From an uncultured Bacteroidales bacterium (GTDB lineage Bacteria; Bacteroidota; Bacteroidia; Bacteroidales; P3), in assembly GCA_944321735.1 (NCBI GenBank), contig CALUMK010000018.1:1-50941 (forward strand): a stretch of 50,941 nucleotides of DNA, given 5' to 3'. The notes under the pieces are model-generated. The model worked only from the letters and a program-made list of their open reading frames with translations. It was not told where the DNA came from and did no database searches. Below, in pieces: positions 6,951 to 48,488 of this stretch. A program made the position numbers and the translations under genes. How positions within the stretch are numbered: position 1 is the stretch's first letter; each line of letters begins with the position of its first letter.

Positions 6951-7069
6951 GGCGTGTCAGAATGGGTGAGATGCAAGGCGCTAAGGGCGAGAACGAAAGA
7001 GCGTACTATAGTACGTGACTGAGTTCGAGACCCGCAAGCAACGCAGCAGATTACCCATTATCACACGCC
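6951..7069 (+). repeat. Long-hairpin intergenic element, copy A
   Basis: Outer arms of 24 nt pair with each other: GGCGTGTCAGAATGGGTGAG... at the left end against the reverse complement of the right end, which ends ATTATCACACGCC. The apex is the perfect palindrome CGTACTATAGTACG (7002-7015). Conserved boxes are GAGATGCAAGG (left) and CAACGCAGCAGATT (right). Tandem GA/GA mismatches flank the apex and the TGC/GCA step. It begins 14 nt after the prs stop codon, read on the gene strand, and lies upstream of rplY. Confidence 0.75.
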
Positions 7070-7083
7070 GCCGCAAAGGTATG

Positions 7084-8028
7084 CTAATTCTGGAAGCTAT
7101 ACAAATTCGAAATGCTCTCGTAAGCTTCCACACGACGAATCACTTCCGCCAGCAGCTTGGCCGTGGAAATGACCGTAATCTTGTCCGAAGGCCGCGAAAG
7201 AGGAATCGTATCGCTGACGATCAACTCGGTCAGGTTCGATTTTTCAATCCGGTCGATCGCGTTGCCCGACAATACCGGGTGGGTAACAATGGCGCGGACG
7301 CTCTTGGCCCCATGCGACAAAATCAGGTCGGCCGCCTTCATGATGGTGTTGCCGGTATCCAGGATATCGTCCATCAACACCACGTTCTTGCCTTCCACAT
7401 CCCCGATCAACTGCATTTGGTCAACCACATTGGGTTTGCTGCGCTGCTTGTAGCAAATGGCAAAGCCCGTATTGAAAATCTTGGCGTACATGCTAGCCCG
7501 GCGGGTACCTCCGGTATCGGGCGAAGCGAACATCAGGTTGTCCATGTTCATTGCACGCAAATGGGGCACGAACAAAGATGAAGCATAGAGGTGATCCACC
7601 GGAGTTTCAAAGAAACCCTGGATCTGGTCGGCATGGAGGTCGATCGTGATGATACGGGAAACCCCGGCCGTCGTCAACAAGTTAGCCACCAACTTGGATG
7701 TGATAGGCACGCGGGGCTTGTCCTTGCGATCCTGACGCGCATAGCCGAAATAAGGAATCACAGCGATGATTTTCCGCGCCGATGCCCGCTTGGCGGCATC
7801 GATCATCAACAGCAGCTCGAAAAGATTGTCGGTGGGCTGGAAAGTGGATTGGACAATGAAGACATCGTTTCCACGAATGTTCTCTTCGTAAGATGGCCTG
7901 AATTCCCCATCCGAGAAAATAGCCACATCCGATGATCCCAGCGGAGCACCGTATTCCTTGGCAATCTTGTCGGCCAGATAACGAGTGGCCCGGCAGGAAA
8001 AAATCTTGACTTGCGCTTTGTTTTCCAT
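7084..8028 (-). CDS. prs: Ribose-phosphate pyrophosphokinase
   Basis: A 314-residue cytosolic enzyme making PRPP from ribose-5-phosphate and ATP for nucleotide, histidine and NAD synthesis. Seen are the ATP-loop region FSDGEFRPSYEENIRGNDVFIVQS, the PRPP-synthase signature in ITIDLHADQIQGFF, and the ribose-5-phosphate loop LMDDILDTGNT. Start chosen at the ATG at 8028 (MENKAQVKIFSC), because a good promoter lies at 8079-8110 and the longer frame to 8064 lacks conserved residues. Single gene, followed by a long-hairpin repeat. Confidence 0.95.
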   Translation of the reverse strand: MENKAQVKIFSCRATRYLADKIAKEYGAPLGSSDVAIFSDGEFRPSYEENIRGNDVFIVQSTFQPTDNLFELLLMIDAAKRASARKIIAVIPYFGYARQDRKDKPRVPITSKLVANLLTTAGVSRIITIDLHADQIQGFFETPVDHLYASSLFVPHLRAMNMDNLMFASPDTGGTRRASMYAKIFNTGFAICYKQRSKPNVVDQMQLIGDVEGKNVVLMDDILDTGNTIMKAADLILSHGAKSVRAIVTHPVLSGNAIDRIEKSNLTELIVSDTIPLSRPSDKITVISTAKLLAEVIRRVEAYESISNLYSFQN

Positions 8029-8078
8029 CACTGTAGTTTTTAATTGTTTACGATTCGGTTCCACCCCGAATCCGCCTG

Positions 8079-8110
8079 CAAAAGTAACTTTTTGTTAACT
8101 TGCTTGCAAA
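8079..8110 (-). promoter_or_regulatory. Promoter of prs
   Basis: Reverse strand: TTTG (8110-8107), a 20-bp spacer and TACTTTTG (8086-8079), matching the Bacteroidetes consensus. The leader to the ATG at 8028 would be about 45 nt. Confidence 0.65.
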
Positions 8111-8196
8111 TCCGGGAAGGCAAATGTCCTGACCGTATCTTGAACATTGCCGCCGAAAGAATCGCCATCATGCCCCACAGCCCCCTACAAGCTCAA

Positions 8197-9147
8197 TCAC
8201 AAATCCCCCTTTGCTGGCAAAACATCGTTTGCACCCGGTTCATCTTCCTCGGGCGGTACCAAGTAGCAAATCTCGCCCTGCGTCTCCGACACCAATTGAA
8301 CCATGCCCTTGCGGTCGGCAAGGTATATCGTATCGAAAAGGCCATACATAGTCTCGGGAAGCACATGCTTCAAGACACGGCCATATACCCGTCCATTCAC
8401 CGATTTCCATTCAGGGAAATAGTAAAAACCAGGCGTGTCTCCGTCCATGCCCCCTTGCAAGAACTCCGGAGAAATCTGTGTTGAGACCATATCCGCACCG
8501 CATAGAGGCTCTCCGTCCAATCACAAAGCCCCGGAATCTGCCAGGCACCAAGTGTTCCCATCAGCAAACTCCATCTGCAAGATACCTTTGCCCACGGCCA
8601 CATACAGCACGCAGGGAGCTTCGGCATCCTCCACCCGGTAGACATCCTCGTAATCCTGTCCGTTTGCCGCAGACCAATGCCCGAGCAAAGTGCATGAACG
8701 CCCGCCGGCTTCACCCCATGACGCAACGGACAAGCCGTCCTGATTGGAGAATGCCAACCATGACCATTGGTAGTCGATTCCCATGAAGTCACTCAAGCAT
8801 ACTGTCACTTCGCAGGAAGCAGGCAAATCCTCCCCCGGCCCCATGACGAAACGGTTCACATACAGGATGTCGCCAGCATCGTTCCCTTCCACTGCCACGG
8901 ATGCGGTCACATCGCAGGCGCACTTGGAATTAGTACGAATGCCGTACTTGTCTGTATAGTCCACGATGCCGCAATGCATCTCGACCTCCTTGCCCCCATT
9001 GACATAGACCAACTCCCGTCCCTGCTCCCCGACCGGCATAATCCCTTCCACATCCCTCGGATAGCCCGGACACGGGCGGGAACAGCCGACCGCCACCATG
9101 GCGATAAACAATGAAAACAATCCTGTCAAAAAATCCTTCAAAATCAT
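8197..9147 (-). pseudogene. Lipoprotein gene interrupted by an in-frame TGA
   Basis: The frame runs from the start near 9147 (ATG; a GTG at 9153 overlaps the protease stop) to a TGA at 8523-8521, then continues in the same frame to a stop near 8197. The first part, about 208 residues, has a lipoprotein signal (FIAMVAVGCSRP) and many cysteines. The second part, about 107 residues after the TGA, has ordinary protein composition (FYYFPEWKSVNGRVYGRVL). The join reads ADSGAL-stop-LDGEPLCG, so a single nonsense change, for example from TGG or CGA, explains it. The family is not recognised. It is the last gene of the operon with the C25 protease. Confidence 0.6.
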
Positions 9148-9149
9148 AC

Positions 9150-11156
9150 TCACTCAACTTTTAAAATAATATTAGACCCAGCCGATATTTCTGTACCTGG
9201 CTGCAACACAATAGTTTCGTTAGCTTTTACCTCCATATTAGTCCCTGCTTCAACTTTGGCATTAGTCAAAAACACCTGTTTTGCCTCTAACTTCAACAAA
9301 GAAGAAAATGTTCCAGCAATATTACCAGAAACAGTCATGGATGTCCCGGCTCGAAATAGCAATGCCGCATTGGATGATAAAGAAACCCCCTGGTTAATAA
9401 TCATAGTCCGAGAAGCTTCATACATCAAATCAATACCCGACACAGCTTCCAATTTCTGAGAAAATATGTAGTCATTCACCATAGAGGGTAATCCGTTTTT
9501 CAACAAACTTGGATCTCCAATCAGATTATAAGACTTCATGTACCTTCTCGTTCGTTTCAATGCCATACGTGACCATAATCGCTTTCGATACTTGGTCATA
9601 CCATGAGTGACTATAGCCCCTATGGTCTGTTCTCCAAAAGAAGACCCTAACACTTTTTCCTCTATTGCCAAATCACTATTTTTTAGAGTATTTACACTTG
9701 ATCCAAAATAAATAGACGGCCCCACATGTGCTTTTGTTGGAGCACAGGCCAAATAAGCGGGATTACTGTAATTTCCTGTTTTGCACGCAAACGAGAATAC
9801 AAAGGGGTACACATTCTCGCTTTTCCAATCGCTATATCTGAAACTACTACCATTCCCGTATGCCAAACTTGTCAGACTTCCATGTCCACTATACACAAAC
9901 CAAAAAGGATAATTATTTTTCAATGCATCAATACTGGTATAAGGAGACTGATAATATTTGTCACACCGGAAATCCTCTGTAGAAAATCCCTTTTGTATAG
10001 CTTTATCATGACCTTTCCTAAAAGCATTCTCCATATGGTCTCTATCATCAAAGCCTGCCAAAAAAACTGCCCTCTTTGGCCAAAGACCAATCTCACACTC
10101 TGTCTTGATAGTTTTATTGATAATGAAAGCTAACTCCTGCGTACTTGTCACTGGCCATCGCCCAAGATACACGTCTCCATAAATCTTATCATTCCCACTC
10201 CACCGCCTATATTCTTGATCCGTTATCGGATTATCCATATCTTCCGAACTCGGATTCCCGCTTGTATATGGAATATCATTTACAGATCCAACCAACAATA
10301 CATAATCCGGATTCACATCTTCAACGTAATTACGTATATTCTCCACAGTTTTTCCTATCACATCGGTCGATACGGTTTGTACATCCATCCCTATGTTTTG
10401 CTTGTATTGAGAGAAAAGAGACAAACCAGACTCATAAATCGGTGCAGTCACAATCAACAGCTTATCCGAAACATTTTCTTTAGGCGGATTATAGTTCAAA
10501 AGTTCTTCTGACAGAAACGATTTTCGTGCAGGACTCACCTTTACATCTGCCTTAACTGCACCAGAAAGAGACCACGACAATTGAAATTCGGCCTGTTCCA
10601 ATATTTGAATGGCTCCAGTCCGGGGCAAATACTGAAAAGGAATCACAGTCAAACTCACTGCTTTCTCTCCCATGACTTCGAAAGGTTCAGACAACTCATA
10701 AAAAGGAAGCGTGTATGGCGTTGCTGCATTTTGGTAATAGTTTACCTCTAGGAAATCCCCTTCCACACCATCTGCTCCATAGTCCACATACGGCTCTATA
10801 TATACCCCTACAGGCAAAGACCGGGATTCCACTTGCGCATTTTCCATAGACACCTGTACATTCACCGCATTAAATGGTATCCTAACATAGAATGTCAATT
10901 GCGGAACTGCTGGAAACCCCGGATCAGCCACCTGACCATAATCTTCATCAGACACAAGGACTGTTTTGTATTCTCCCGGATAATAATCCGCAATTATTTC
11001 CGAAATTTCGCTGGTTACTAGCGTATAGGATGGAAGATCAAAGCTAATCGCAACAGATGTCTCTGTACTGTTGACAATTCTTTGGGAATATCCACTGCCA
11101 ACATATAAAAAGAACACAATCCACCATACAGTCTTTTCAACAAATCCTCTCTTCAT
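9150..11156 (-). CDS. Gingipain-like cysteine peptidase (family C25)
   Basis: A 668-residue exported protease. The signal peptide is WWIVFFLYVGSGYSQ. The catalytic pair is His425 in FVYSGHGSLTS and Cys458 in FVFSFACKTGNYS, as in gingipains; DVYLGRWPV (about 329-336) is a further family motif. An N-terminal propeptide-like beta domain spans about residues 30-220. The C-terminus has no typical T9SS sorting domain; it ends in a beta stack with ANETIVLQPGTEISAGSN, like the 'coat-hanger' repeats of Bacteroidetes surface proteins. The gene is visibly AT-richer than its neighbours, which may reflect transfer. It lies 13 nt after the S74/T9SS gene and overlaps the lipoprotein gene by its stop, so the three are co-transcribed. 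At about 670 residues it is too short to be PorU. Confidence 0.85.
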   Translation of the reverse strand: MKRGFVEKTVWWIVFFLYVGSGYSQRIVNSTETSVAISFDLPSYTLVTSEISEIIADYYPGEYKTVLVSDEDYGQVADPGFPAVPQLTFYVRIPFNAVNVQVSMENAQVESRSLPVGVYIEPYVDYGADGVEGDFLEVNYYQNAATPYTLPFYELSEPFEVMGEKAVSLTVIPFQYLPRTGAIQILEQAEFQLSWSLSGAVKADVKVSPARKSFLSEELLNYNPPKENVSDKLLIVTAPIYESGLSLFSQYKQNIGMDVQTVSTDVIGKTVENIRNYVEDVNPDYVLLVGSVNDIPYTSGNPSSEDMDNPITDQEYRRWSGNDKIYGDVYLGRWPVTSTQELAFIINKTIKTECEIGLWPKRAVFLAGFDDRDHMENAFRKGHDKAIQKGFSTEDFRCDKYYQSPYTSIDALKNNYPFWFVYSGHGSLTSLAYGNGSSFRYSDWKSENVYPFVFSFACKTGNYSNPAYLACAPTKAHVGPSIYFGSSVNTLKNSDLAIEEKVLGSSFGEQTIGAIVTHGMTKYRKRLWSRMALKRTRRYMKSYNLIGDPSLLKNGLPSMVNDYIFSQKLEAVSGIDLMYEASRTMIINQGVSLSSNAALLFRAGTSMTVSGNIAGTFSSLLKLEAKQVFLTNAKVEAGTNMEVKANETIVLQPGTEISAGSNIILKVE

Positions 11157-11169
11157 GACTTTCTATATT

Positions 11170-12492: not shown

Positions 12493-12868
12493 GCCTTCTC
12501 CAGCCAGACCCGCCCGCAAGAGGAGTGGAGAATAATCCAAAGAAAGATTCTATTAAAATCGGGCTATAGAACTCGCCAAAAGAAAGATTACGGAAGTTTT
12601 GAGTATCTTCGCGCTTTGGTTAACAGGCAAGAACGCAGAAAGCCCAGGCAACTCATGCCGCAGGCCATGCCGCCAAAGGCCGAGGGAATCCTCCAAAGCC
12701 GGTTCCAAAATCCAAACCGAGGCGGTTTTCCCTCTGGGAAAGCAGCGTTTTTGCCGGGGAAAGGCCGCAAAGCGGATACAGAACCCAATCCCAAAGGAAA
12801 GAGAGTGCCGGAGATTCCGCCGCCAAAAGGCATTGAAGCCCCCGGGCATCCCGATAAAACAAAACGGT
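12493..12868. other. Gene-free stretch upstream of nadB
   Basis: The nadB reading frame stays open back to 12599, but the added 90 residues are Arg/Lys/Pro-rich and unlike L-aspartate oxidase, so I read this as leader. TATCTTCG at 12604-12611 resembles a -7 box but has no TTTG at the right distance. Several GC-rich complementary segments lie at 12650-12860; no riboswitch class is recognised. Confidence 0.35.
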
Positions 12869-14449
12869 ATGAAGAAACATGTTGATTTCCTGATCATCGG
12901 AACCGGTATCGCCGGTCTGAGCTATGCCTTGAAAGTGGCTTCCAAAGGCAGCGTCTGCATCATTACCAAATCCAAGGCCGATGAAACATCCACCGCCTTC
13001 GCCCAAGGAGGCATCGCCACCGTGATGGATGCCTTGGATTCGCACGAAAAACATATCCACGACACCTTGGTGGCCGGAGACGGACTCTGCGACGAAAACG
13101 TGGTCCGCTTCACGATTGAGGAATCGAACGACCGCATCAACGAGCTTATCGCCTGGGGAACCGAGTTCGACCGCAAGCAAAGCGGGGAATTCGAATTAGG
13201 CCGGGAAGGCGGGCATTCCGCGCACCGCATCCTGCACCACAAGGATCAGACCGGAGCCGAAATAGAACGCGCCCTGCTGAAAGCCGTCCGCGAACACCCC
13301 GACATCGAACTCTTGGAAGGCTATTTCGCGATAGACCTGATTACCCAGCACCACCTCGGCGTGGAAGTGACCCGCCGCACGCCCGACATCGAATGTTTCG
13401 GAGCCTACGTGCTCAACCCCAATACCAATAAAATAGAGACCATCTTGGCAAAGACCACGATGCTGGCTACCGGCGGCAACGGCAACGTCTACACCAACAC
13501 CACCAACCCGGTAGTAGCCACCGGCGACGGCGTGGCGATGGTTTACCGAGCCAAAGGCAAGGTCTCGAACATGGAATTCATCCAGTTCCACCCTACCGGC
13601 CTCTACAATCCCGGCGAAAAGCCCTGCTTCCTGATTTCGGAAGCCGTAAGGGGCGCAGGCGCCAAACTCTGCACCATCGGGGGCGACTACTTCATGAACC
13701 GCTACGACCCGCGCCTGGAACTGGCTCCCCGCGATGTGGTAGCCCGCGCTATCGACAACGAAATGAAAATCACCGGCGACGACCATGTGTTCTTGGATTG
13801 CCGCCCTATCTCCAAAGAAGAAATCTTCCACCATTTCCCCACCATTTACGCCAAATGCCTCTCCATCGGCATCGACATCACCAAAGACCTGCTGCCGGTA
13901 GTCCCCGTGGCGCATTACAGCTGCGGCGGCATCGTGGTGGACAGCAACGCCTGCACCAGCATCAAGCACCTGTACGCTTCCGGCGAATGCTCCTGCACCG
14001 GCCTGCACGGTGCCAACCGCTTGGCATCGAACTCCCTGCTGGAAGCCTTGGTATTCTCCCACCGCGCTTCCCAACACGCCATCAGCCAGGTATCCCATAT
14101 TGATTTCTGCGAGGAAGTGCCGGACTGGAACGATGAAGGCATGGTGTTCAACGAGGAAATGATCCTGATTACCCAAAGCCTGAAAGAGGTGCAGACCATC
14201 ATGTCGAGCTATGTGGGCATTGTCCGCTCCAACCTCCGCCTCAAACGGGCTTTCGACCGCATGGACATCATCTACAAGGAAACCGAGGACCTCTACAACA
14301 AGTCGGTCCACTCGGTGAAATTGGCCGAATTGAGGAATTTGATCAATGTAGGTTATCTGATCATCAAAATGTCGATGGAACGCAAGGAGAATTGCGGCCT
14401 TTACTATAACATTGACAACATCAAGAAAACGGCTTGCCATAACGGATAA
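12869..14449 (+). CDS. nadB: L-aspartate oxidase
   Basis: A 526-residue flavoenzyme oxidising L-aspartate to iminoaspartate, the first step of de novo NAD synthesis. The N-terminal FAD-binding motif is LIIGTGIAGLSYAL (about residues 8-21). Also seen are TSTAFAQGGIATV, the active-site region MEFIQFHPTGLYNPGE, and GECSCTGLHGANRLASNSLLEALVF near the FAD-binding end. The C-terminal helical domain is present. ATG 12869 begins MKKHVDFLI as in relatives. nadA and nadC are not in the window. Oddity: the last residues (TACHNG) and the TAA stop are encoded by the left arm of the long-hairpin repeat at 14431-14551, so the repeat has supplied or replaced the gene's end. Confidence 0.95.
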   Translation: MKKHVDFLIIGTGIAGLSYALKVASKGSVCIITKSKADETSTAFAQGGIATVMDALDSHEKHIHDTLVAGDGLCDENVVRFTIEESNDRINELIAWGTEFDRKQSGEFELGREGGHSAHRILHHKDQTGAEIERALLKAVREHPDIELLEGYFAIDLITQHHLGVEVTRRTPDIECFGAYVLNPNTNKIETILAKTTMLATGGNGNVYTNTTNPVVATGDGVAMVYRAKGKVSNMEFIQFHPTGLYNPGEKPCFLISEAVRGAGAKLCTIGGDYFMNRYDPRLELAPRDVVARAIDNEMKITGDDHVFLDCRPISKEEIFHHFPTIYAKCLSIGIDITKDLLPVVPVAHYSCGGIVVDSNACTSIKHLYASGECSCTGLHGANRLASNSLLEALVFSHRASQHAISQVSHIDFCEEVPDWNDEGMVFNEEMILITQSLKEVQTIMSSYVGIVRSNLRLKRAFDRMDIIYKETEDLYNKSVHSVKLAELRNLINVGYLIIKMSMERKENCGLYYNIDNIKKTACHNG

Positions 14450-14551
14450 TCTGCTTCGTTACGCGAGGCATTCAGGCTCAGTCACGTACCAAAGTACGCT
14501 CCTTCGCCTTCAGCCTCGCGATGCCTCGCATCCCACCCGTTCTAACAAGCC
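14431..14551 (-). repeat. Long-hairpin intergenic element, copy B
   Basis: The left arm GGCTTGCCATAACGGATAAT (from 14431) pairs with the right arm ending CCCGTTCTAACAAGCC. The apex is CGTAC-CAAA-GTACG (14485-14498). Second-level stems GCGAGGC/GCCTCGC and AGGC/GCCT are separated by tandem GA/GA mismatches on the reverse strand. The left arm contains the nadB stop codon (14447-14449). Orientation by its conserved boxes is reverse, that is, opposite to nadB. Confidence 0.75.
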
Positions 14552-14601
14552 GCATAAAACCTGTAAAAAGCTAAATCTTGCTTTCTCAAAAAAACAGAAT
14601 A

Positions 14602-16017
14602 ATGGAAAACCCAGCAGCCCCCTTTCATCTTCACGCCATATCGCCCTGCGACGGCCGTTACGCAGACAAGACCGCCCCATTGCGGGAATACTTCTCCGAA
14701 TGGGCTTTGATCCGCTACCGTCTCCGGGTCGAAATAGAATACTTCATCGCCCTCTGCGGCTTCGACATCCCGGCCCTCGCCGCTTTCCCCAAGGAGAAGT
14801 TCGAGGATCTGCGGAATCTCTACCGGAACTTTTCCGATGCCGATGCCCAGGAAATCAAGGAAATCGAAAAGACCACCAACCACGATGTGAAGGCGGTGGA
14901 ATACTTCATCAAGGCCCGTTTCGAGAAATGGAGCCTGCAAGAGTTCGAGGAATTCGTACACTTCGGGCTTACTTCGCAGGACATCAACAACACTGCCCAG
15001 CCGCTAATGCTCAAGGAAGGCTTGGAAAACGCGGTCCTGCCTGCCTTGCAGAGCGTCATCGACAAGATTAGCGAGAAGGCCGAAGAATGGAGCCAGGTGG
15101 GCATGCTGGCGCGGACGCACGGGCAGCCGGCCTCGCCGACCATCCTCGGCAAGGAGATGCTGGTGTTCGTGGAACGCATCTACAGCCAGCTGCAGCTGCT
15201 GGCCAGTACCCCGCACTCGGCCAAGTTCGGCGGCGCCACCGGCAACCTCAACGCCCATTACGTGGCTTTCCCCGACAAGGACTGGGTGGGGTTTGCCAAC
15301 CGCTTCGTCAAGGAACACTTGGGCTTGGAACGTTACCAGACCACCACGCAAATAGAGCATTACGACAACGCTGCGGCCATTTTCGACGCGATGCGACGGG
15401 TCAACACCATCCTGATCGATTTCTGCCGAGATGTCTGGACGTATGTCTCGATGGATTATTTCAAACAGAAAATCAAACAAGGCGAGGTCGGTTCGTCGGC
15501 CATGCCGCACAAGGTGAATCCCATTGACTTTGAGAACGCGGAAGGCAACTTGGGCGTGGCCAACGCCCTCTTCACGCACCTGTCGATGAAGCTGCCCATT
15601 TCCCGGATGCAGCGCGACCTGACCGACTCCACGGTCTGCCGCACGATAGGCTTGCCGATGGCTCATAGCCTGATTGCCTACAAATCGCTCGAAAAAGGAT
15701 TGGGCAAGCTTCTACTGCACCAGGAAAGCTTTGAACAGGATCTGGAAAACAACTGGGCCGTAGTCTCGGAAGCCATCCAGACCATCCTCCGGGCCGAAGG
15801 CTTCCCACATCCTTACGAAGCCCTCAAAGCCTTGACCCGCACCGGAAACAAAATCACCAAAGAAACGATTCACGATTTCATCGACCATCTGGACGTGCCT
15901 TCGCCGCTCAAGGAAAGGATGAAACGAATCACGCCGCAGAACTACACAGGGTTCTACGGGGCGCATCCGGAAAGCATCTCCCAACGCATAGAAGACTGCA
16001 AGCGCCACAACGCCTGA
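14602..16017 (+). CDS. purB: Adenylosuccinate lyase
   Basis: A 471-residue member of the fumarase/aspartase superfamily that splits SAICAR and adenylosuccinate in purine synthesis. The N-terminus AISPCDGRYADKTAPLREYFS matches the E. coli-type PurB rather than the shorter B. subtilis type. Catalytic landmarks are TSQDINNTAQ and TRTHGQPASPT (catalytic His), and the signature loop GSSAMPHKVNPIDFENAEGN with the catalytic Ser (about residues 297-316). Start set at the ATG at 14602; the upstream frame to 14578 adds eight residues. It follows nadB at 150 nt, separated by the hairpin repeat. Confidence 0.96.
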   Translation: MENPAAPFHLHAISPCDGRYADKTAPLREYFSEWALIRYRLRVEIEYFIALCGFDIPALAAFPKEKFEDLRNLYRNFSDADAQEIKEIEKTTNHDVKAVEYFIKARFEKWSLQEFEEFVHFGLTSQDINNTAQPLMLKEGLENAVLPALQSVIDKISEKAEEWSQVGMLARTHGQPASPTILGKEMLVFVERIYSQLQLLASTPHSAKFGGATGNLNAHYVAFPDKDWVGFANRFVKEHLGLERYQTTTQIEHYDNAAAIFDAMRRVNTILIDFCRDVWTYVSMDYFKQKIKQGEVGSSAMPHKVNPIDFENAEGNLGVANALFTHLSMKLPISRMQRDLTDSTVCRTIGLPMAHSLIAYKSLEKGLGKLLLHQESFEQDLENNWAVVSEAIQTILRAEGFPHPYEALKALTRTGNKITKETIHDFIDHLDVPSPLKERMKRITPQNYTGFYGAHPESISQRIEDCKRHNA

Positions 16018-20189: not shown

Positions 20190-20978
20190 ATGGAACCCGA
20201 CAGCACACACGCACACGAAAACCCAATCCGAGACAAGGCCTTCATCCTTCAAAAGAAACATTACCTGCCCATCAAGGAATGGGACATCCAAGACCGTCCC
20301 CGGGAAAAATTCCTGTCCGGGCAGATGCCCGATATGCCGGACGAGGAACTGTTAGCTATCCTGATTGGCAGCGGGACCGAAAACCTCTCGGCTTTGGACA
20401 TAGCCAAACGAATCCTGGAGCACTTCAACGGCAATCTAGAATCCCTCAGCAGCCGTTCTGCCAAAGAACTGGCGCGCAAGTTCACCGGCATCGGCACTGC
20501 CAAAGCCGTCAGCATCCTAGCTGGGATGGAATTGGGCAGACGCAGTTTCAATCCGCAGCATGAAGATGAAATCATCATCAATTCGAGCGAGAAAGCCTTT
20601 CAATTCCTTCGCCGCGACCTCTCCAGCCCTTACGAACGCTTCTACGCCCTCCTTCTATCCCAATCCGGGAAGTTGATTCGAAAGGTCCTGATCAGCGAAG
20701 GCGGACTGGCCTGCACTACGGTCGATGCCCGCAAAATCTTCAAATTCGCGATAGACGAACACTGCTGCGGCTTGATACTGGCTCACAACCATCCCTCCGG
20801 CAATACCCGTCCCAGCCCTGAAGACGTCAATATCACACAGAAAATCTGCGACGGCGCCCGCCTGCTCGATCTGCACGTGTTCGACCACATCATCGTAGGC
20901 AACAACCGCTATTACAGTTTCTCTGACAACAATCTGGTCATTGGCAAAATAGCCGACTTCCGTGCCATTGTACCGTAA
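20190..20978 (+). CDS. radC: RadC-family (JAMM/MPN+) protein
   Basis: A 262-residue protein. The N-terminal UPF0758 helix-hairpin-helix part (LLAILIGSGTENLSALDIA, then FTGIGTAKAVSILAGMELG) is followed by a JAMM metalloprotease-like domain with the metal-binding AHNHPSGNTRPSPEDVN (about 198-214) and the later DHIIVG. RadC was named as a DNA repair protein but that role is disputed; the domain suggests a metal-dependent hydrolase. Not linked to a phage here. Confidence 0.92.
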   Translation: MEPDSTHAHENPIRDKAFILQKKHYLPIKEWDIQDRPREKFLSGQMPDMPDEELLAILIGSGTENLSALDIAKRILEHFNGNLESLSSRSAKELARKFTGIGTAKAVSILAGMELGRRSFNPQHEDEIIINSSEKAFQFLRRDLSSPYERFYALLLSQSGKLIRKVLISEGGLACTTVDARKIFKFAIDEHCCGLILAHNHPSGNTRPSPEDVNITQKICDGARLLDLHVFDHIIVGNNRYYSFSDNNLVIGKIADFRAIVP

Positions 20979-32374: not shown

Positions 32375-32502
32375 GTAAAAACGATTTTAGAAGAACCGAC
32401 ACGAGGCGTCGAGCCGCCGGGCGGCACGGGAGCGTACTTTTGTACGTGACCAAGCCGCACAAGGCTCGCAACGAAGTAGCGGCCTTATAAAATCGTTTTT
32501 AC
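32375..32502 (+). repeat. Long-hairpin intergenic element, copy E
   Basis: The left arm GTAAAAACGATTTTAGAAG (32375) pairs with the right arm, whose reverse complement reads GTAAAAACGATTTTATAAG. The apex is CGTAC-TTTT-GTACG (32433-32446). Conserved boxes ACGAGGCGTCGAG and CAACGAAGTAG are present, with CGAGCC/GGCTCG as middle stem. The outer end of the right arm supplies the frr stop codon (TAA at 32501-32499). Confidence 0.75.
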
Positions 32503-33065
32503 ACAGTCATGATATCTTTTTCCTTCTCCGCCAAAATCGCCTCCACCTTCGCCACATACTTGTCGGTCTGATCCTGGATATCCTTTTCCGCCTGCTTGGC
32601 AGCATCTTCCGGCAGCGCCTTGTCCTTGCCGAGCTTCTTGATTTCCTCGTTGGCATCGCGACGGGTATTGCGGATCACCACCTTGGCATTCTCGCCCTCG
32701 GCACGGCACTTCTTCATCATTTCCTTACGACGGTCTTCGCTCAACGGAGGCAAAGTGATACGAATCACTTCCCCGTTGTTCTGGGGCGTGAAACCCAAAT
32801 TGGCCGCCAGAATCGCCTTCTCGATGACCGGCAGCATCTTCTTTTCCCAAGGCTGCACCACAATCTGCCGCGCATCCGGCGTATTGATAGCCCCTACTTG
32901 GTCAAGCGGCGTCATATTCCCGTAATAATCCACACGGATACCTTCCAACATTTGCGGACTGGCCTTGCCGGCCCGGATCCGACCCAGTTCCTTTTCCAGA
33001 TACTGCAAAGCAGCCTCCATCTGGGCCTTTTGCTTTTCCATACAAGCTTTCACTTCTTCGGTCAT
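32499..33065 (-). CDS. frr: Ribosome recycling factor
   Basis: A 188-residue factor that splits the post-termination ribosome together with EF-G. MEAALQYLEKELGRIRAGKASPQML and DYYGNMTPLDQVGAINTPDA are family-diagnostic, as are SEDRRKEMMKK and the C-terminal QDQTDKYVAKVEAILAEKEK. It lies downstream of pyrH on the same strand, a common order. The stop codon lies at the outer edge of hairpin element E. Confidence 0.97.
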   Translation of the reverse strand: MTEEVKACMEKQKAQMEAALQYLEKELGRIRAGKASPQMLEGIRVDYYGNMTPLDQVGAINTPDARQIVVQPWEKKMLPVIEKAILAANLGFTPQNNGEVIRITLPPLSEDRRKEMMKKCRAEGENAKVVIRNTRRDANEEIKKLGKDKALPEDAAKQAEKDIQDQTDKYVAKVEAILAEKEKDIMTV

Positions 33066-33256: not shown

Positions 33257-33961
33257 CTAATGCACCAAGGTTCCTATCTCCTCGCCCTCCACCACCTTGC
33301 CAAGGTTGCCCGGCGTATCCATATCGAACACGTAAATAGGCACATGGTTTTCCTCGCAAAGCGTGAAAGCCGTCAAATCCATGATTTTCAACTTCTTCTC
33401 ATAAGCCTCGGCAAAACGAAGTTCCTTGTACTTCACCGCCGTCTTGTCCTTTTCCGGGTCAGCCGTATATACCCCGTCCACCCGCGTGCCCTTCAAAAGC
33501 ACATCCGCATGGATTTCCACCGCCCGCAAAGCCGCGCCCGAATCGGTCGTGAAGAACGGATTGCCTGTGCCGCAAGCCATAATCACCACATATCCCTTTT
33601 CCAAGTAATCAATCGCCCGGCGGCTGCTCATCTTCTCCGCCACAGGGTCTATGGCCAAGCCCGACAAAAGAACCGCCTTGACCCCTTCCTTTTCCAAAGC
33701 CGACTGCAAAGCCATCGAATTAATCACCGTGGCCATCATTCCCATATAGTCGCCCTGGATACGATCCATGCCCTTGGCCGCCCCCTGCAACCCACGGAAG
33801 ATGTTCCCACCCCCGATGACTATCCCGATCTGGCAACCCCGCCGGGCCACCCCCGCTATCTGCGAGGCGTATTCACCCAGCCTTTGCGGGTCTATCCCAT
33901 ACGCCTGCCCGCCCATCAGCGACTCGCCGCTCAATTTGAGCAAAATCCTTGAATATTTCAT
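33257..33961 (-). CDS. pyrH: UMP kinase
   Basis: A 234-residue cytosolic amino-acid-kinase-fold enzyme phosphorylating UMP to UDP. Seen are RILLKLSGESLMGG, VIGGGNIFRGLQ, the UMP-binding DYMGMMATVINSMAL, CGTGNPFFTTDSGAALRA and KGTRVDGVYTADPEKD. Full length. It lies upstream of frr, with a 191-bp gap. Confidence 0.97.
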   Translation of the reverse strand: MKYSRILLKLSGESLMGGQAYGIDPQRLGEYASQIAGVARRGCQIGIVIGGGNIFRGLQGAAKGMDRIQGDYMGMMATVINSMALQSALEKEGVKAVLLSGLAIDPVAEKMSSRRAIDYLEKGYVVIMACGTGNPFFTTDSGAALRAVEIHADVLLKGTRVDGVYTADPEKDKTAVKYKELRFAEAYEKKLKIMDLTAFTLCEENHVPIYVFDMDTPGNLGKVVEGEEIGTLVH

Positions 33962-34157: not shown

Positions 34158-34280
34158 AAACGCCGCAGAAGGAGGCAGATACGAGGCGTCGAGTTGAAGC
34201 GCGGCGCGGGAGCGTACTTTTGTACGTGACCAAGCCGCGCAAAACTCGCAACGAAGTAGATGCCCCCTTATGCGGCGTTT
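34158..34280 (+). repeat. Long-hairpin intergenic element, copy D
   Basis: The left arm AAACGCCGCAGAAGGAGGCA (34158) pairs with the right arm, reverse complement AAACGCCGCATAAGGGGGCA. The apex is CGTAC-TTTT-GTACG (34213-34226). Middle stems are CGAGTT/AACTCG and GCGCGGC/GCCGCGC, which differ from those of copies E and F but stay paired. GA/GA mismatches sit next to TAC/GTA and next to the apex stem. The right arm encodes the last residues (NAA) and the stop of the YitT-family gene. Confidence 0.78.
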
Positions 34281-35272
34281 GAACGGAGAGCCTTGAACCC
34301 ACGCCCCATAACCTCGCTCGAATCGCTCACCGACACAAAAGCGTCCGGATCGGCATCGCTAAGCAGGTTGCGCAGGGTCACTAATTCACGACGGGTCAAA
34401 GAAACATATACCAAGTCGCGCTCCAGACCCTGATAAAGCCCTTTGGCATGGATATGGGTACCGCCCCGCTTCATTTTGGAGATAATCACCTCGCGCACAG
34501 CATCATATTTATTGGTGACAATAAACACTGTCTTGTAGGACTTGAGGCCATCCACCACGATATCGATAACCTTGCCTTCAATCACAATCAACAGGATGGA
34601 GTAAATCGGCAAGCGGAAACCCTTGCCCAGAACCAAAGTGGACAACGTAATCGTGGTATCGACAATGATAACCAAGGTCCCCAGCGGAAGATGCGTGTAC
34701 TTGTTGATAATCATCGAAATGATATCGCTACCGCCCGAAGTGGCCCCCGACTTGAAAATCAAGCCGATCGCAATCCCGTAAATCAGACCGGCCACAATCG
34801 TGTTCATGAAATAGTCCGGCACGAACCACACCAGCTGTTCGCCTTGGCCGATAGAACACATCGTATTCTGCATATATTCCGGCATCGCCGCCACCTGGCT
34901 GGCATCCAGAATGCCGTTATGCAGGATAGGCGCGTAGCCCCAATAGGTTTCAATGACCCAAGTGGCCCCCAGAATCACGAAAGTGGACAGAATCGTCTTG
35001 AAACCGAAACGCGGCCCCAGAATCAACGTCCCGATAATCAGCAAAGGAATATCCATGCAAGCCGCCAAATAGCTGACCTTCCAATGCACAATGGCATTCA
35101 AAACGTTAGAGAGACCGTAAGTCCCGCCGGGCGCCAGACCGTAAGGCGTGGCGAACTTGATGTTCCCGAACGCGAAAATAATACTCCCGCTGATTACCAA
35201 CAGATAGGAAATCAACTCCTTCTTGTTGAACCACTGGTCCTTGGTAAAAGAATTCTTCAGAGCCGTAGCCAT
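34268..35272 (-). CDS. YitT-family membrane protein (DUF161 and DUF2179)
   Basis: A 334-residue inner-membrane protein. Five or six hydrophobic helices (YLLVISGSIIFAFGNIKFAT, GLAPGGTYGLSNVL, then SGATSGGSDIISMIINKYTHL) form the YitT domain; the C-terminal DUF2179 part (FIVTNKYDAVREVIISKMKRGGTHI, YVSLTRRELVTLRNLLSDADPDAFVSV) is a small cytosolic domain. Function is unknown; substrate transport is assumed by family. Its last codons and stop lie in hairpin element D. Confidence 0.85.
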   Translation of the reverse strand: MATALKNSFTKDQWFNKKELISYLLVISGSIIFAFGNIKFATPYGLAPGGTYGLSNVLNAIVHWKVSYLAACMDIPLLIIGTLILGPRFGFKTILSTFVILGATWVIETYWGYAPILHNGILDASQVAAMPEYMQNTMCSIGQGEQLVWFVPDYFMNTIVAGLIYGIAIGLIFKSGATSGGSDIISMIINKYTHLPLGTLVIIVDTTITLSTLVLGKGFRLPIYSILLIVIEGKVIDIVVDGLKSYKTVFIVTNKYDAVREVIISKMKRGGTHIHAKGLYQGLERDLVYVSLTRRELVTLRNLLSDADPDAFVSVSDSSEVMGRGFKALRSNAA

Positions 35273-35493: not shown

Positions 35494-36321
35494 TTAAGCA
35501 CCCAACTGTACACGACGGAAAGCCGTAATCACAGCACCGCCGCCATTCTGCTTCACATAGTCGGCCACGCTCAGCTTGCCGTCCATGATGAATTCCTGAT
35601 GAACCAAGGTGTTTTCCTTGTAGAACTTGTTCATACGGCCCATCGCGATTTTTTCAATCATGTTTTCAGGCTTGCCTTCAGCGCGGGTGGCTTCCTTGGC
35701 CACTTCCATTTCGCGGGCAATCACATCAGCCGGAACTTCCTTCTCGCTCAAAGCGATAGGATTCATGGCAGCCACCTGCATCGTCACATTGTGACCTACT
35801 TCAGGATTGGCATCCGCCTTGTCGAACGAAACCAAGGTAGCCAGTTTGTTGCCGTTGTGGTTGTAAGCGAAAACCACCGGAGCTTCCAGAAATTCATAGT
35901 GAGGAATTTCCATCTTTTCGCCAATCTTGCCCACCAAGTCAGTGATATGGTCGGCCACCGTGCGGTCGTCCACCTTCAAAGCCATGACTTCTTCCTTGGT
36001 CTTTGCCTTGGCAGCCAAAGCCAGTTCGGCCATCTTGCGAACCAAGCCGGTAAATTCATCGTTCTTGGCAACAAAGTCCGTTTCGCAGCTCAAGCAAACG
36101 ATGCAGCCGAAGCCCTTGTCGGCCGTTACCTGTGCCCAAACCATGCCTTCCTTGGCTTCCTTGTCGGCGCGGTTGGCAGCCACCTTCTGGCCTTTCTTAC
36201 GCAAATAATCGATTGCCTTTTCGAAGTCGCCTTCGCATTCGGTCAAAGCCTTCTTGCAATCCATCATACCGGCTCCGGTCATTTGGCGGAGCTTGTTTAC
36301 ATCAGCAGCAGTAATAGCCAT
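35494..36321 (-). CDS. tsf: Elongation factor Ts
   Basis: A 275-residue nucleotide exchange factor for EF-Tu. The N-terminal UBA-like part (AADVNKLRQMTGAGMMDCKKAL), the core contact motif (CLSCETDFVAKNDEF) and the dimerisation/coiled parts are present. It is downstream of rpsB; the two are separated by hairpin element C, and the terminator at 35446-35474 closes the operon. Confidence 0.97.
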   Translation of the reverse strand: MAITAADVNKLRQMTGAGMMDCKKALTECEGDFEKAIDYLRKKGQKVAANRADKEAKEGMVWAQVTADKGFGCIVCLSCETDFVAKNDEFTGLVRKMAELALAAKAKTKEEVMALKVDDRTVADHITDLVGKIGEKMEIPHYEFLEAPVVFAYNHNGNKLATLVSFDKADANPEVGHNVTMQVAAMNPIALSEKEVPADVIAREMEVAKEATRAEGKPENMIEKIAMGRMNKFYKENTLVHQEFIMDGKLSVADYVKQNGGGAVITAFRRVQLGA

Positions 36322-36346: not shown

Positions 36347-36465
36347 GGCGTGTGATAACGAACAATCTGCTTCGTTGCACTCCCTTGGCAGAATCCTCAC
36401 GCACGAAAGTGCGCTCCGGTTCGCCTGCGGTCGCGCGCCTCGCATCTTATCCGTTCTGACACGCC
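36347..36465 (-). repeat. Long-hairpin intergenic element, copy C, inside the rpsB-tsf operon
   Basis: The left arm GGCGTGTGATAACGAACAAT (36347) pairs with the right arm, reverse complement GGCGTGTCAGAACGGATAAG. The apex is CGCAC-GAAA-GTGCG (36400-36413), which changes the usual CGTAC/GTACG on both sides together. It begins 20 nt after the rpsB stop. Its conserved boxes face the opposite way, relative to the upstream gene, from the other full copies. Confidence 0.75.
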
Positions 36466-36485: not shown

Positions 36486-37382
36486 TTACTTCTTGGAAAC
36501 TTTCTTGGCTCCAGCCGGAGAAGAGCGACGCGGCCGGCGTTCACGATGACCTTCTTCCGAAGAATCCTCATCCGCAACACGCTTGCGTTTCTTTTCGCTG
36601 CCCCCTTCGTTTTCTTCTTCATCCATGCCGTCCACAGCCAGTCTTTCTTCGCTTTCGGCGGCTTCTTCCTCTTCCTTCTGCTGATCCTTGTCGAGCTTGC
36701 GTTCGGTCAAGCCTTCTTCTATCGCGTTCACAACCTGTTCCACGATAATCGCAATCGACTTGGAAGCATCATCATTTGCCGGAATCACAAAGTCCACCAA
36801 ATCCGGGTTCACGTTGGTATCGACCATGGCGAAAACCGGGATATTCAGACGGCGGGCTTCAGCCACCGCGATATGTTCCTTGTTGATATCCACTACGAAG
36901 ATAGCCGACGGCAGCCGACTCAAATCGGCAATGGAACCCAAGTTCTTTTCAAGCTTTTCCTTTTCACGCGAAATCTGCAAGCGTTCCCTCTTGGAAAGGG
37001 TTTCGAACTGCTTGTCGTTCATCAGACGGTCTATGCTGGCCATCTTCTTCACCGCCTTGCGGATTGTGGTGAAGTTCGTCAACATACCGCCCGGCCAACG
37101 TTCGGTCACGTAAGGCATATTGACACGCTGAACCTGTTCAGCCACGATAGCGCGAGCCTGTTTCTTGGTGGCTACAAAGAGAATCTTACGACCCGACTTG
37201 GCAATCTGCTTGATAGCCGCGCAGGCCTCATCCAATTTGGCTTCTGTTTTCTGGAGGTCAATGATGTGGATCCCGTTCTTTTCGGCAAAGATATAAGGAG
37301 CCATTTTGGGATTCCACTTTCTTCTTAGGTGGCCGAAATGCACACCTGCATCGAGCAATTGCTCAAAAGTTACTCTGGACAT
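36486..37382 (-). CDS. rpsB: 30S ribosomal protein S2 with long charged tail
   Basis: A 298-residue ribosomal protein. The family core is clear: FEQLLDAGVHFGHLRRKWNPKM, FVATKKQARAIV, ERWPGGMLTNFTTIRK and NIPVFAMVDTNVNPDLVDFVIPANDDA. From about residue 229 there is a 70-residue low-complexity tail, first acidic (KEEEEAAESEE), then basic (ERRPRRSSPAGAKKVSKK), longer than in most bacteria. The tail is probably disordered. Upstream are rplM and rpsI on the same strand. Confidence 0.96.
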   Translation of the reverse strand: MSRVTFEQLLDAGVHFGHLRRKWNPKMAPYIFAEKNGIHIIDLQKTEAKLDEACAAIKQIAKSGRKILFVATKKQARAIVAEQVQRVNMPYVTERWPGGMLTNFTTIRKAVKKMASIDRLMNDKQFETLSKRERLQISREKEKLEKNLGSIADLSRLPSAIFVVDINKEHIAVAEARRLNIPVFAMVDTNVNPDLVDFVIPANDDASKSIAIIVEQVVNAIEEGLTERKLDKDQQKEEEEAAESEERLAVDGMDEEENEGGSEKKRKRVADEDSSEEGHRERRPRRSSPAGAKKVSKK

Positions 37383-37952: not shown

Positions 37953-37954
37953 GA

Positions 37955-42243: not shown

Positions 42244-42244
42244 C

Positions 42245-43168: not shown

Positions 43169-43170
43169 AA

Positions 43171-45335: not shown

Positions 45336-45526
45336 TCTGCAAACAAATAAAAACATCGTCCCGCCCTATGGCGAGCCAGAACAGCAATGCTCACCAGCTT
45401 CCAGGCCGCAATCCCGCTATTGGCTGAGCGTGGCCGAATACACGACCGGATAAATCTCCTCAGGAAACCGATAGCCTCCATTGGCAAGCCGCCCCCATCG
45501 ACCTCTTGCCCGTTCCGACCTGCCCA

Positions 45527-46114: not shown

Positions 46115-46430
46115 ATAATGTAGTTTTAAGGTTTTTTGCTTGTTTGATACCCGTTCTGCCGCCTTCTGTCGTCACCCGGGAAGACTTCAAAAGCGGAGTT
46201 TCCGACCGATTTTCAAACATCCCCAGCCCCTTCGGCTGGCAGACAGCCGTCAAAATTAAAAAAATTCATTATACTTGCAAGTTAAAATTTCTTAAAAAGC
46301 CCGTTTGCCGAATCCCGCGAAAGCCTTTGCACAAGGCGCATCCCATACGGTGGGGGGAAGGGAAGCGAGTTTTACAAGAACCGAAAAGCAACAAATTCAA
46401 ATTTTTCATAAACAAACAAAGTACAAAGTT
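46115..46430. other. Gene-free stretch upstream of the POT transporter gene
   Basis: An AT-rich core at 46251-46300 holds TATACTTG (46270-46277), one mismatch from the -7 consensus and without a good -33 box. The transporter frame stays open back to 46305 but the added residues are not conserved. Nothing else is seen. Confidence 0.35.
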
Positions 46431-48365
46431 ATGTTAAAAGGACACCCCAAAGGACTTATCGTCCTTGCGTTGGCCAACATGGGAGAACGCTTCGGCTATT
46501 ACACCATGCTTGCCATCCTGACCCTGTTCATGCAGGCGAAATTCGGCTTGTCGAGCGCCGCAACCAGTATGATTTACGGCATTTTCCTCGCCGGAGTGTA
46601 CTTCCTCCCCCTCTTGGGCGGTATCATCGCCGACAAGGTATTGGGTTACGGAAAGACCATCCTGATCGGTTTCATCGTCATGTTCGGCGGTTATCTGCTG
46701 CTTTCGATGCCTACCGATGCCAATATGTCGGGCAAACTCATCATGTTCGCCGCTTTGGCCTTGATTGCGATAGGGACAGGCTGCTTCAAAGGTAACTTGC
46801 AGGCCTTGGTCGGAAACCTTTACGACGACCCCAAGTACAGCCGTTACCGCGACATCGCTTTCTCCATTTTCTACATGTTCATCAATATCGGAGCATTCTT
46901 CGCCCCGAGCATGGCCAACTCCATCAATAACTACTTCCTCAAACAGGACGGTTATACCTACGATGCCTCCATTCCGGCCAATTACGTACAGCTCAACGAC
47001 TTCACCGCATTGTACGATGACAATGCCAATTTGGACGCCTATACCCGCGACAGCTTGCAGAAAGGCCACGATGCCGCCCTGCTCCGTCTCAAGGCCGCCG
47101 CTCTGGCACAGGAAGGCCAGCTGGATTCCGCCAGCTACGAATTGTTCCTGAGCCGCCATGTGGCCGATGCCGACAAAGCTCCGGTCATTGCCCAAATCCA
47201 GCTCAGCAGCCTGAATCGGCCCAATATCGCCAATATGGAAGACACTACCGGATGGGGGTATGAATACGCCAACTGGGCTTCCATCGACAACACCACCCAA
47301 GTGAAGACCTGGGCCAACAGCTACGTGCAGAACGCCCTCAGCAAGTCCTACAACATGGCCTTCGGCGTGGCTTGCATCAGCTTGATTGTATCCTTCCTGA
47401 TTTTCATCATCTGGCGCAAGACCTGGAAAGGCGTTGACAAGACCCTGAAGGAACAGCTGGCCGAAGCCGCCAAGAGCGGGAAGCAATCCGAAGTGGTTCA
47501 ATTAAGCCCGGCCCAGACCCGCGAACGTCTGATTGCCCTGTTCTTAGTATTCTTTGTGGTTATCTTCTTCTGGATGTCGTTCCATCAAAACGGCCTTACC
47601 CTGACCTTCTTTGCCCGCGACTACACCCAAAGCTCCGTCAGCGGCGGCGGTTACATGTTCTTCAACCTCATTTCGCTGATTTCGATTATCGTGTTCGCTT
47701 ACGGTATCTATTGGGCCACGATGGGTCTGTTCGGCGGCAAGAAGAGCACCGGCAAGGGTCTCGTCACGATGCTTATCGGCTTAGCCGGCATCATCGCTTT
47801 CTACTTCCTGCGTGCCGTCGATGCCGAAAACATCAAGATTACCCCGCAGATCTTCCAGCAGTTCAATCCTTTCTTCATCGTATTGCTGACCCCGCTTTCG
47901 GTAGCCTTGTTTACCAGCCTCAACCGCAAGGGCAAAGAACCTTCGGCCCCGCGTAAAATCGGCTACGGTATGGTGGTTGCCGCTTTGGGCTTCGTGGTCA
48001 TCCTGATTGCCACCATTTCCAACCATCTGCCTTCGCCCAACGAAATCAAGGGTGTTTCGGATGTACTGGTATCGCCCAACTGGCTTATCGGAACCTACTT
48101 CACGCTGACCATTGCCGAGCTGCTGCTCAGCCCGATGGGTCTGTCGTTCGTAGCCAAGGTGGCTCCTCCTCAATACAAAGGCATGATGCAAGGTGGCTGG
48201 CTGGCCGCTACGGCTATCGGCAACCTCTTGGTAGGTGTCATGGGCTCGCTCTGGGAAAAAGTTTCCATCTACATGTTCTGGGGCATCCTGATTATCTGCT
48301 GCATTTTGTCGGCGTTGTTTATATTCTCGGTTATTAAGAAGTTGGAACGCGCCACCAACGATTAG
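46431..48365 (+). CDS. POT/PTR2-family proton-coupled peptide transporter
   Basis: A 644-residue inner-membrane permease of the MFS fold, importing di- and tripeptides with protons. The start motif GMERF-like is ANMGERFGYYTMLAILTLFM; IFYMFINIGAFFAPSM is the FYxxINxG motif. A long soluble insert (about residues 180-300) lies between the halves, as in other Bacteroidetes POTs. The last 12-14 hydrophobic segments are clear (SIIVFAYGIYWATMGLF, LVTMLIGLAGIIAFYFL). The TAG stop lies within the left arm of hairpin element F. Confidence 0.92.
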   Translation: MLKGHPKGLIVLALANMGERFGYYTMLAILTLFMQAKFGLSSAATSMIYGIFLAGVYFLPLLGGIIADKVLGYGKTILIGFIVMFGGYLLLSMPTDANMSGKLIMFAALALIAIGTGCFKGNLQALVGNLYDDPKYSRYRDIAFSIFYMFINIGAFFAPSMANSINNYFLKQDGYTYDASIPANYVQLNDFTALYDDNANLDAYTRDSLQKGHDAALLRLKAAALAQEGQLDSASYELFLSRHVADADKAPVIAQIQLSSLNRPNIANMEDTTGWGYEYANWASIDNTTQVKTWANSYVQNALSKSYNMAFGVACISLIVSFLIFIIWRKTWKGVDKTLKEQLAEAAKSGKQSEVVQLSPAQTRERLIALFLVFFVVIFFWMSFHQNGLTLTFFARDYTQSSVSGGGYMFFNLISLISIIVFAYGIYWATMGLFGGKKSTGKGLVTMLIGLAGIIAFYFLRAVDAENIKITPQIFQQFNPFFIVLLTPLSVALFTSLNRKGKEPSAPRKIGYGMVVAALGFVVILIATISNHLPSPNEIKGVSDVLVSPNWLIGTYFTLTIAELLLSPMGLSFVAKVAPPQYKGMMQGGWLAATAIGNLLVGVMGSLWEKVSIYMFWGILIICCILSALFIFSVIKKLERATND

Positions 48366-48488
48366 AAAGAATTAGGCGGGCAATCTACTTCGTTGCGAAC
48401 CTTGGGCGGCTTGGTCACGTACAAAAGTACGCTCCCGCGCCGCCCGGCGGCTCGACGCCTCGTATCTTACCCGCCTAATTCATTCTAA
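48362..48488 (-). repeat. Long-hairpin intergenic element, copy F
   Basis: The left arm TTAGAAAGAATTAGGCGGGC (48362) pairs with the right arm, reverse complement TTAGAATGAATTAGGCGGGT. The apex is CGTAC-AAAA-GTACG (centred near 48425). Boxes CTACTTCGTTGCGA and CGACGCCTCGTATC match copies D and E in reverse. The left arm holds the stop codon of the POT gene (48363-48365). Confidence 0.78.

Follow-up and report, generated by a model that had tools for sequence, protein, structure and literature searches.

ERIC, also known as IRU or RU-1, is an imperfect palindrome of about 127 bp that lies between genes in many copies. One account reports it from Enterobacteriaceae and Vibrionaceae (PMC10969869). 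A review of 2007 lists TA termini and a target site duplication for ERIC/IRU, tabulates RPE (Rickettsia palindromic elements) and CIR (Caulobacter/Brucella) beside it, and describes Correia/NEMIS and RUP as short miniature inverted-repeat transposable elements (MITEs) with TA termini (PMC2229807). Herein, we describe a hairpin element of 119-128 bp that occurs six times (copies A to F, Table 1) in a stretch of 50,941 nucleotides, termed the window, from an uncultured Bacteroidales bacterium (contig CALUMK010000018.1, assembly GCA_944321735.1). All six copies are present where an earlier note on this DNA, made from the sequence alone, had placed them. The note knew of no named element with such a design. 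ERIC has this design, and we are highly confident that the window element is a member of the ERIC/IRU superfamily and forms a Bacteroidota branch of it. It is probably a non-autonomous hairpin element of mobile type, hosted by a genus of Bacteroidota to which Candidatus Pullibacteroides excrementavium belongs.

Kinship with ERIC and occurrence across phyla

A covariance model of 132 positions (R1) was built only from copies in the window's own genome of 2.7 Mb (G000; the other G-numbers denote other genomes, and L-numbers denote loci). Two E. coli ERIC loci, L352 and L353, align with R1 over positions 1-132 of 132, with scores of 29.5 and 28 bits and rough E-values of 7e-6 and 2e-5, respectively. 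The two loci were found via their similarity to the Enterobacter copy, and L352 holds what we take to be the classical ERIC2 primer sequence. One locus each of Klebsiella, Citrobacter, and Enterobacter is likewise matched over positions 1-132 of 132. Whole-genome counts with R1 are lower bounds, with at most 150 candidates scored per genome. In five gammaproteobacterial genomes, chosen via an exact core match, these counts reached at least 53 copies in Klebsiella indica, at least 56 in Citrobacter, at least 15 in Rouxiella, at least 5 in Enterobacter cloacae, and at least 1 in Aeromonas, whereas at least 1 each was counted in two large genomes from the same order as the window. Given that R1 matches E. 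coli ERIC over its full length and finds so many copies in Klebsiella and Citrobacter, we conclude that ERIC and the window element belong to one superfamily.

The likeness extends to details. Both have the core GGAGC(G/T)TAC-N4-GTA(C/A)GTGA and the inner boxes AAGGCG and AACGCA; they agree in length, imperfect palindromy, intergenic placement, and high copy number; the same strand folds better in both, and the outermost arms vary from site to site in Citrobacter too, as judged by eye. The differences lie in the host phylum, Bacteroidota, which falls outside the strict-sense ERIC host range of Enterobacteriaceae and Vibrionaceae; in the arms, which are much more site-specific in the window's genus; in a strong one-way docking at stop codons, a feature that 36 Klebsiella/Citrobacter copies do not have; and in the core stem, which is mostly GCGTAC here but GCTTAC in the two E. 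coli loci. Among the matches listed from the open-access literature, none reports ERIC outside Gammaproteobacteria or docking at stop codons, and searches with sequence strings gave nothing relevant among the matches listed. As far as these matches go, the ERIC/MITE kind of element is itself known, and what is new is its spread over several phyla with one core, the one-way stop docking, the strand asymmetry, and the site-specific arms.

Scanning a genome collection for the exact core returned at least 115 stretches, from taxa that include enterobacteria, Mesorhizobium, Listeria, Bacillus, Rickettsia, Porphyromonas, Fulvivirga, and Scalindua. In 123 genome matches, the flanks with the core removed had a median fold z of -5.46, and 91 of them fell below -3, compared with a median of -0.30 and 5 of 137 for random places in the same loci. 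Both inner boxes were present in 71 of the 123 core matches and in 9 of the 137 random places. The 36 genomes reached via core loci, three of which belong to the window's genus, hold 1-97 core copies each, with the highest number in Fulvivirga imtechensis, against 0-1 control matches per strand. Counts with R1 were at least 150 in Scalindua, at least 110 in Fulvivirga, at least 89 in a Rickettsia endosymbiont, at least 71 in Porphyromonas somerae, at least 70 in Listeria rustica, at least 33 in Asticcacaulis, and at least 24 in a Mesorhizobium. The records of Fulvivirga, P. somerae, Listeria, Asticcacaulis, and Mesorhizobium are titled as strains; titles of metagenome-assembled genomes (MAGs) can err. 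A MAG titled Ruminococcus flavefaciens NALB_7813_18 (loci L066 and L085) is genome G256 of the window's genus, and its public label looks wrong; these two loci are therefore no evidence for Bacillota. Together with L068 (G247) and L125 (G257), they were kept in the flank-fold counts, in the 104-copy orientation counts given below, and among the sources of R1 matches, and were excluded from the mismatch-type, strand-stability, and mirror tests.

Within the window's order, the exact core was found in 3 of 247 sampled genomes, the window's own included, and in 12 of 41 near relatives, eleven of which belong to the window's genus. A scan of viral sequences gave 14 core matches, of which 7 have no flanking fold and look like chance. 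Three Rickettsiaceae genomes and an Asticcacaulis hold 8, 8, 63, and 33 copies of the core of the window element; RPE and CIR are set beside this element here by host and description, and identity with either is only a lead. Correia/NEMIS and RUP are likened to it by description, as short MITEs with TA termini. A wider reading, which we hold only tentatively and regard as somewhat less than likely, is that single-strand hairpin elements of this kind would form one superfamily throughout bacteria, with ERIC as its enterobacterial branch. Such a superfamily would share a single core hairpin across Bacteroidota, Listeria, Rickettsia, and Planctomycetota, with outer arms rewritten to match each other at each site, a fixed orientation to stop codons in several lineages, and one shared enzyme reading the folded strand and not the terminal sequence.

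Covarying arms, folding strand, and stop codons

In G000, a 20-base core with at most one mismatch was found at 68 places (reversed control, 0), and a looser core scan of the G000 loci gave 70 places. The covariance model, with which 150 of 526 initial candidates were scored, detected at least 112 copies at E ≤ 0.01. The covariance-model search that the earlier note had proposed thus brings up many further copies in this genome, beside those in other genomes. In the comparison with Rfam, also proposed there, the element matches no family at gathering score; the only family found in the window is one tRNA elsewhere.

The note had further observed that the arms stay complementary in spite of their base differences, and this is borne out over the whole genome. 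An alignment (MAFFT) of 61 of 67 copies yielded an RNAalifold structure of 25 pairs, of which 20 vary on both sides. In these copies, 90.4% of the stem cells are paired, compared with 67.8% (sd 0.8) in shuffles, none of 500 of which reached the observed value, and with only 22.7-40.8% when the partner was slid. The covariation score was 0.590, against 0.188 for shuffled and at most 0.145 for slid partners. The other six copies were excluded by eye: two tandem duplicates at L006, L030, and L017, L038, and L053, the last three because their halves look recombined. On the same columns, these six have 79.3% of cells paired, and all 67 copies have 89.4%. The copies are paralogues within one genome, and their counts are not independent events. 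The note took such compensation as evidence that the fold is under selection. The covariation is strong, but selection need not be its sole cause, because one arm of L022 (minus strand) has been corrected as a block to the mirror of the other arm: L022 has GAT on both sides, whereas its orthologues in G257 and G247 keep CAG/GAT. Two bases changed together here, as hairpin-templated copying would do; this one polarised case is a hint. Tandem arrays were also seen, with three copies 135 bp apart at L006 (G000:C1:304907-305196) and a spacing of 122-127 bp at L088 and L083, from Rouxiella aceris and Alteribacillus.

The two strands of the element differ in stability. The element strand was defined as the strand reading GAGCGTAC-N4-GTACGTGA. 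With RNA parameters, it is the more stable strand in 63 of 67 copies of G000, 62 of 63 of G257, 28 of 33 of G247, 110 of 120 from other genomes, and 33 of 35 of ERIC; with DNA parameters, the numbers for the same five sets are 64, 61, 27, 111, and 33. Isolated stem mismatches on the element strand, counted as G-T to A-C, stand at 28:16, 24:11, 13:12, 95:24, and 27:3 in the same order (sign test, p = 0.10, 0.04, 1.0, 3e-11, and 8e-6, uncorrected for kinship).

The element also has a fixed orientation toward gene ends. In the window, the 3' end of five of the six copies faces the end of a gene on the opposite strand, and four of the six contain its stop codon. In G000, the end of an open reading frame (ORF) of at least 90 codons lies inside or within 60 nt of the 3' side in 53 of 64 copies and of the 5' side in 19 of 64, compared with 12-13% at random places. 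A stop codon is located at most 8 nt from the nominal 3' end in 39 of 64 copies of G000, 36 of 58 of G257, and 20 of 31 of G247, and equally close to the 5' end in only 4, 2, and 0 copies, respectively; orthologous copies in these three genomes are not independent. In 34 of the 39 stop-adjacent copies of G000, the left arm mirrors a stretch of 10 nt whose first base is the last one of the stop codon, compared with 141 of 1482 cross-copy pairings, while the mirror identity of the 12 coding bases before the stop is at chance (2.6 of 12). Given that the mirror begins with the last stop-codon base and that the coding bases match only at chance, the palindrome ends at the stop codon. The same chance-level identity rules out that the arms are copies of coding sequence. 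Among 104 copies from other genomes, four loci of which come from the window's genus, ORF ends lie at the 3' side in 53 and at the 5' side in 30, with controls of 12-14%. TGA is scarce beside the elements, with 12 of 95 stops compared with 175 of 590 for long ORFs (relatives and window).

Turnover, proposed mobility, and rival explanations

Orthologous sites were searched with the element copies masked in the flanks. Sites of G000 are occupied in 41 cases and without core in 8 in G257; in G247, the numbers are 15 and 7. Locus L040 includes paralogous sites and was dropped from the later orthologue comparisons. In G247 and G257, no copy F is seen within 130 nt past the end of the corresponding gene. 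Copy E is missing in ten relatives; by eye, six of them have a plain hairpin at the place and four have nothing. At the end of the ribosome recycling factor (RRF) gene, the site of copy C, the element is present in G000, G257, G256, and G247, a plain terminator was recognised by eye in six relatives, and neither of the two is clear in G250. The copy A site of G247 has flanks 99% identical to those in G000, and there the outer arms are wholly different yet complementary and the core is lost. Copy B has a 9-base deletion in its core in G247, and the left half of copy D is absent from G257. At a site in Mesorhizobium, for which 61 genomes were searched and 28 alleles read, 4 alleles have the element, 1 has a remnant, and 23 are without it; the four element alleles carry four different complementary arm pairs. 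One of these, L322, was flagged by script, and the other three, which have a five-base loop, were recognised by eye. In L325 and L336, also from Mesorhizobium, a second palindromic-looking sequence is inserted in the element beside the core. The presence and absence expected of a mobile element are thus observed for copies E and F and at the Mesorhizobium site, each of which, as a single case, could be loss.

Target choice and enzyme are inferred here, as is the single-strand mechanism of such mobility, which in our judgement is evenly balanced between right and wrong. The element would move as a folded single strand and would be recognised by the core hairpin together with the tandem G-A mismatches rather than by a fixed terminal sequence. 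It would enter at a TA or a stop codon, with a purine at its end restoring the stop. The arms may stay complementary in two ways at once, through selection for the fold and through hairpin-templated copying that turns one arm into the mirror image of its partner.

A number of observations weigh against the element being a single-strand mobile hairpin of the kind just described, or limit how far this can be extended to the whole family. The inner part is at least 80% identical in 20 of 24 clean orthologous pairs (G000 against G257 or G247), and most copies are therefore inherited. A TA is found at the mirrored position in only 11 of 34 stop-adjacent G000 copies and, by eye, in two of the six window copies (C and F). 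The element-free Mesorhizobium alleles that were read end in TGA, and three of the four element alleles end in TAG; this speaks against a simple targeting of the TA of stop codons, which we rejected, though TGA is under-used beside the elements. The mirror test is passed by only 15 of 33 stop-adjacent copies from other genomes. In 36 ERIC-type copies from Klebsiella and Citrobacter (38 examined, less two Scalindua copies, one of which had been counted right), the association with stops is weak and lacks a fixed direction, with 11 on the left (5') and 6 on the right (3'); stop docking is therefore not family-wide. The mismatch types are even in G247 (13:12, p = 1.0), and their bias in G000 is only 28:16 (p = 0.10). 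The cross-phylum set was picked by the core, the conservation of which is thus given by construction, so that only the flanks count as evidence, and a clear flanking fold is absent in 32 of the 123 cross-genome matches.

The search for a mobilising enzyme adds to these points. None of the 13 genus genomes searched, some of them incomplete, yielded the Y1 transposase family PF01797, while the same search was positive in 5 of 14 control genomes. PDDEXK_2 (PD-(D/E)XK nuclease family transposase; PF12784) genes number 10, 7, 5, 4, and 2 in G000, G247, G257, G255, and G250, and six of the ten E. coli ERIC matches listed fall in genes of the Rpn family. PDDEXK_2/Rpn was nevertheless rejected as a required mobiliser, with zero genes in 8 of 13 genomes; the PDDEXK_2-free genomes G256, G253, G248, G252, and G251 hold 23, 22, 15, 11, and 8 exact core copies. 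In the window, a PDDEXK_2 gene lies directly after copy F, at 48531-49466 (+).

The earlier note had offered three possible natures for the element: a mobile single-strand hairpin like the REP sequences moved by TnpA-REP, a 3' mRNA stabiliser, or a protein-binding cruciform. REP hairpins have an adjacent tetranucleotide and lie at gene ends, and the window element resembles them in the GGAG located 5' of its core stem and in its place at gene ends. It departs from REP/BIME with its REP-associated Y1 transposase in structure, in the absence of that transposase from the genus genomes, and in size, since a REP unit has 20-40 bp (PMC3733652) and the window element about 120 bp. A REP/BIME-type repeat moved by such an enzyme was therefore rejected, and we give this identity almost no credence; of the note's proposal, the single-strand mobile hairpin survives as the best reading, without its REP-type enzyme. 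A transcript hairpin selected at gene ends as an intrinsic terminator or stabiliser, with arms that coevolve accordingly, is in our view unlikely. It would explain why ORF ends lie at or in the 3' side of 53 of 64 copies, and it fits the plain terminator (by eye) at the RRF end and the hairpin between rpsB and tsf, each seen in six relatives, the AAAA right after the stop in 16 of 39 copies, and the orientation-dependent mRNA destabilisation reported for ERIC in Yersinia (PMC2229807). In 37 of the 39 stop-adjacent copies, however, the mRNA strand folds less stably than its complement, and TTTT follows at the far end of the hairpin on the mRNA strand in only 6 of 39 (15%), against 9% of random 22-mers. 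With U-tracts this scarce, we rejected intrinsic termination as a general role, while some single copies could still terminate. Moreover, the gene pairs around copies A and E, prs-rplY and rpsB-tsf, usually share a transcript.

The site-specific arms might alternatively be older than the element, which would then have inserted into the loop of a terminator or another hairpin already in place; we regard this as quite improbable. Such a history is suggested by the RRF end, where G256 and G000 have the outermost TAAAAACGATT in common and differ inside, by L045 and its G257 counterpart, which have the same outer palindrome and different contents, and by L001, whose outer arms are 91 and 86% identical to those in G257 around an inner part of 75% identity. 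Yet among the orthologous sites examined, the outer palindrome never occurs without element sequence; L324, the G000 allele beside L055, and G247 at copy A keep boxes and look internally deleted, for which another reading is possible. The four arm pairs in four Mesorhizobium alleles and the new arms within 99% identical flanks at the copy A site of G247 also speak against older arms. A protein-binding cruciform, symmetric in both strands, would suit a long covarying palindrome, but we consider it very improbable: stability is asymmetric in five of five sets and mismatch type in four of five, and a tandem GA reads as TC on the opposite strand. The strand asymmetry therefore speaks against selection acting on an mRNA hairpin and against a symmetric cruciform, and both of these proposals of the note are disfavoured. 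Taken together with the one-way docking at stop codons, the better folding of the strand that is usually not the mRNA favours a single-strand hairpin over a terminator, a stabiliser, or a symmetric cruciform.

The window copies and what the family offers

The location of the six copies and of the boxes of copy D is given in Table 1.

Table 1. Element copies in the window, with the boxes of copy D
Feature	Position	Strand	Context or content
Copy A	6951..7069	+	prs (7084-8064, -; PRPP synthetase) on one side, rplY (6300-6878, -; ribosomal L25) on the other
Copy B	14431..14551	-	arm contains stop codon of FAD flavoprotein gene (12599-14449, +)
Copy C	32375..32502	+	terminal TTA holds stop of RRF gene (32499-33065, -)
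Copy D	34158..34280	+	arm contains stop of YitT-family gene (34268-35272, -)
Copy E	36347..36465	-	between rpsB (36486-37382, -) and tsf (35494-36321, -)
Copy F	48362..48488	-	stop codon of POT transporter gene (46305-48365, +) lies at its end
5' inner box of copy D	34178..34188	+	GATACGAGGCG; CAAGGCG is the consensus (27 copies, many genomes)
Core hairpin box of copy D	34212..34229	+	GCGTAC-N4-GTACGT with GA on each side; the part common across phyla
3' inner box of copy D	34249..34261	+	CAACGAAGTAGAT; AACGCAG is the consensus (27 copies, many genomes)

Copy A is separated from the prs stop by 14 nt, and copy C has TA at each end. Copy B is followed, 3' of the flavoprotein gene, by an adenylosuccinate-lyase-like gene (14578-16017, +), and an AA_kinase gene (33257-33961, -) comes after the YitT-family gene and copy D. 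Copy E, which has the same strand as rpsB and tsf, is the sole exception in orientation among the six. Copies E and A interrupt gene pairs that are usually conserved, rpsB-tsf and prs-rplY. Six copies were folded (A, B, D, F, and two others), with z of -6.4 to -12.8; the folds consist of short helices with 2x2 internal loops between them, several of which are GA/GA.

The three boxes that the earlier note had described as common to all copies are real when judged against shuffles, but they are less exact than it spelled them, as copies A, C, and E deviate. With at most 3 mismatches, the core box has 7 matches in the window, namely the six copies and one 3-mismatch match at 20630, compared with 1.49 expected, and 0 of 100 shuffles reached 7. 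GATRCGAGGCG, with at most 1 mismatch, has 10 matches (the six copies, 24336, 28441, 48580, and 48650) compared with 1.95 expected, a count reached by 0 of 100 shuffles. The box CAACGAAGYAGAT, with at most 2 mismatches, is found in the six copies only; 1.99 matches were expected, and 1 of 100 shuffles reached 6, so that this box taken alone is weaker evidence than the others. The variants of copy A are GATGCAAGGCG and CAACGCAGCAGAT, and those of copy C are GACACGAGGCG and CAACGAAGTAGCG. In the core of copy E, GCGCAC/GTGCGT replaces GCGTAC/GTACGT, a compensated change. The two GATRCGAGGCG boxes at 48580-48590 and 48650-48660 (both on the minus strand) lie just past copy F and are perhaps half-elements.

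ERIC serves widely in typing, yet a review of 2007 still regarded the means by which it moves as an open question (PMC2229807). A family that spans many phyla permits comparison, in which one can look for genes that track copy number and can set folding strand and landing sites side by side. One-way docking at stop codons, together with arms that change in concert without fixed ends, gives strong clues to the mechanism that can be put to the test, and cultured, harmless bacteria such as Fulvivirga offer hosts in which the element can be studied.

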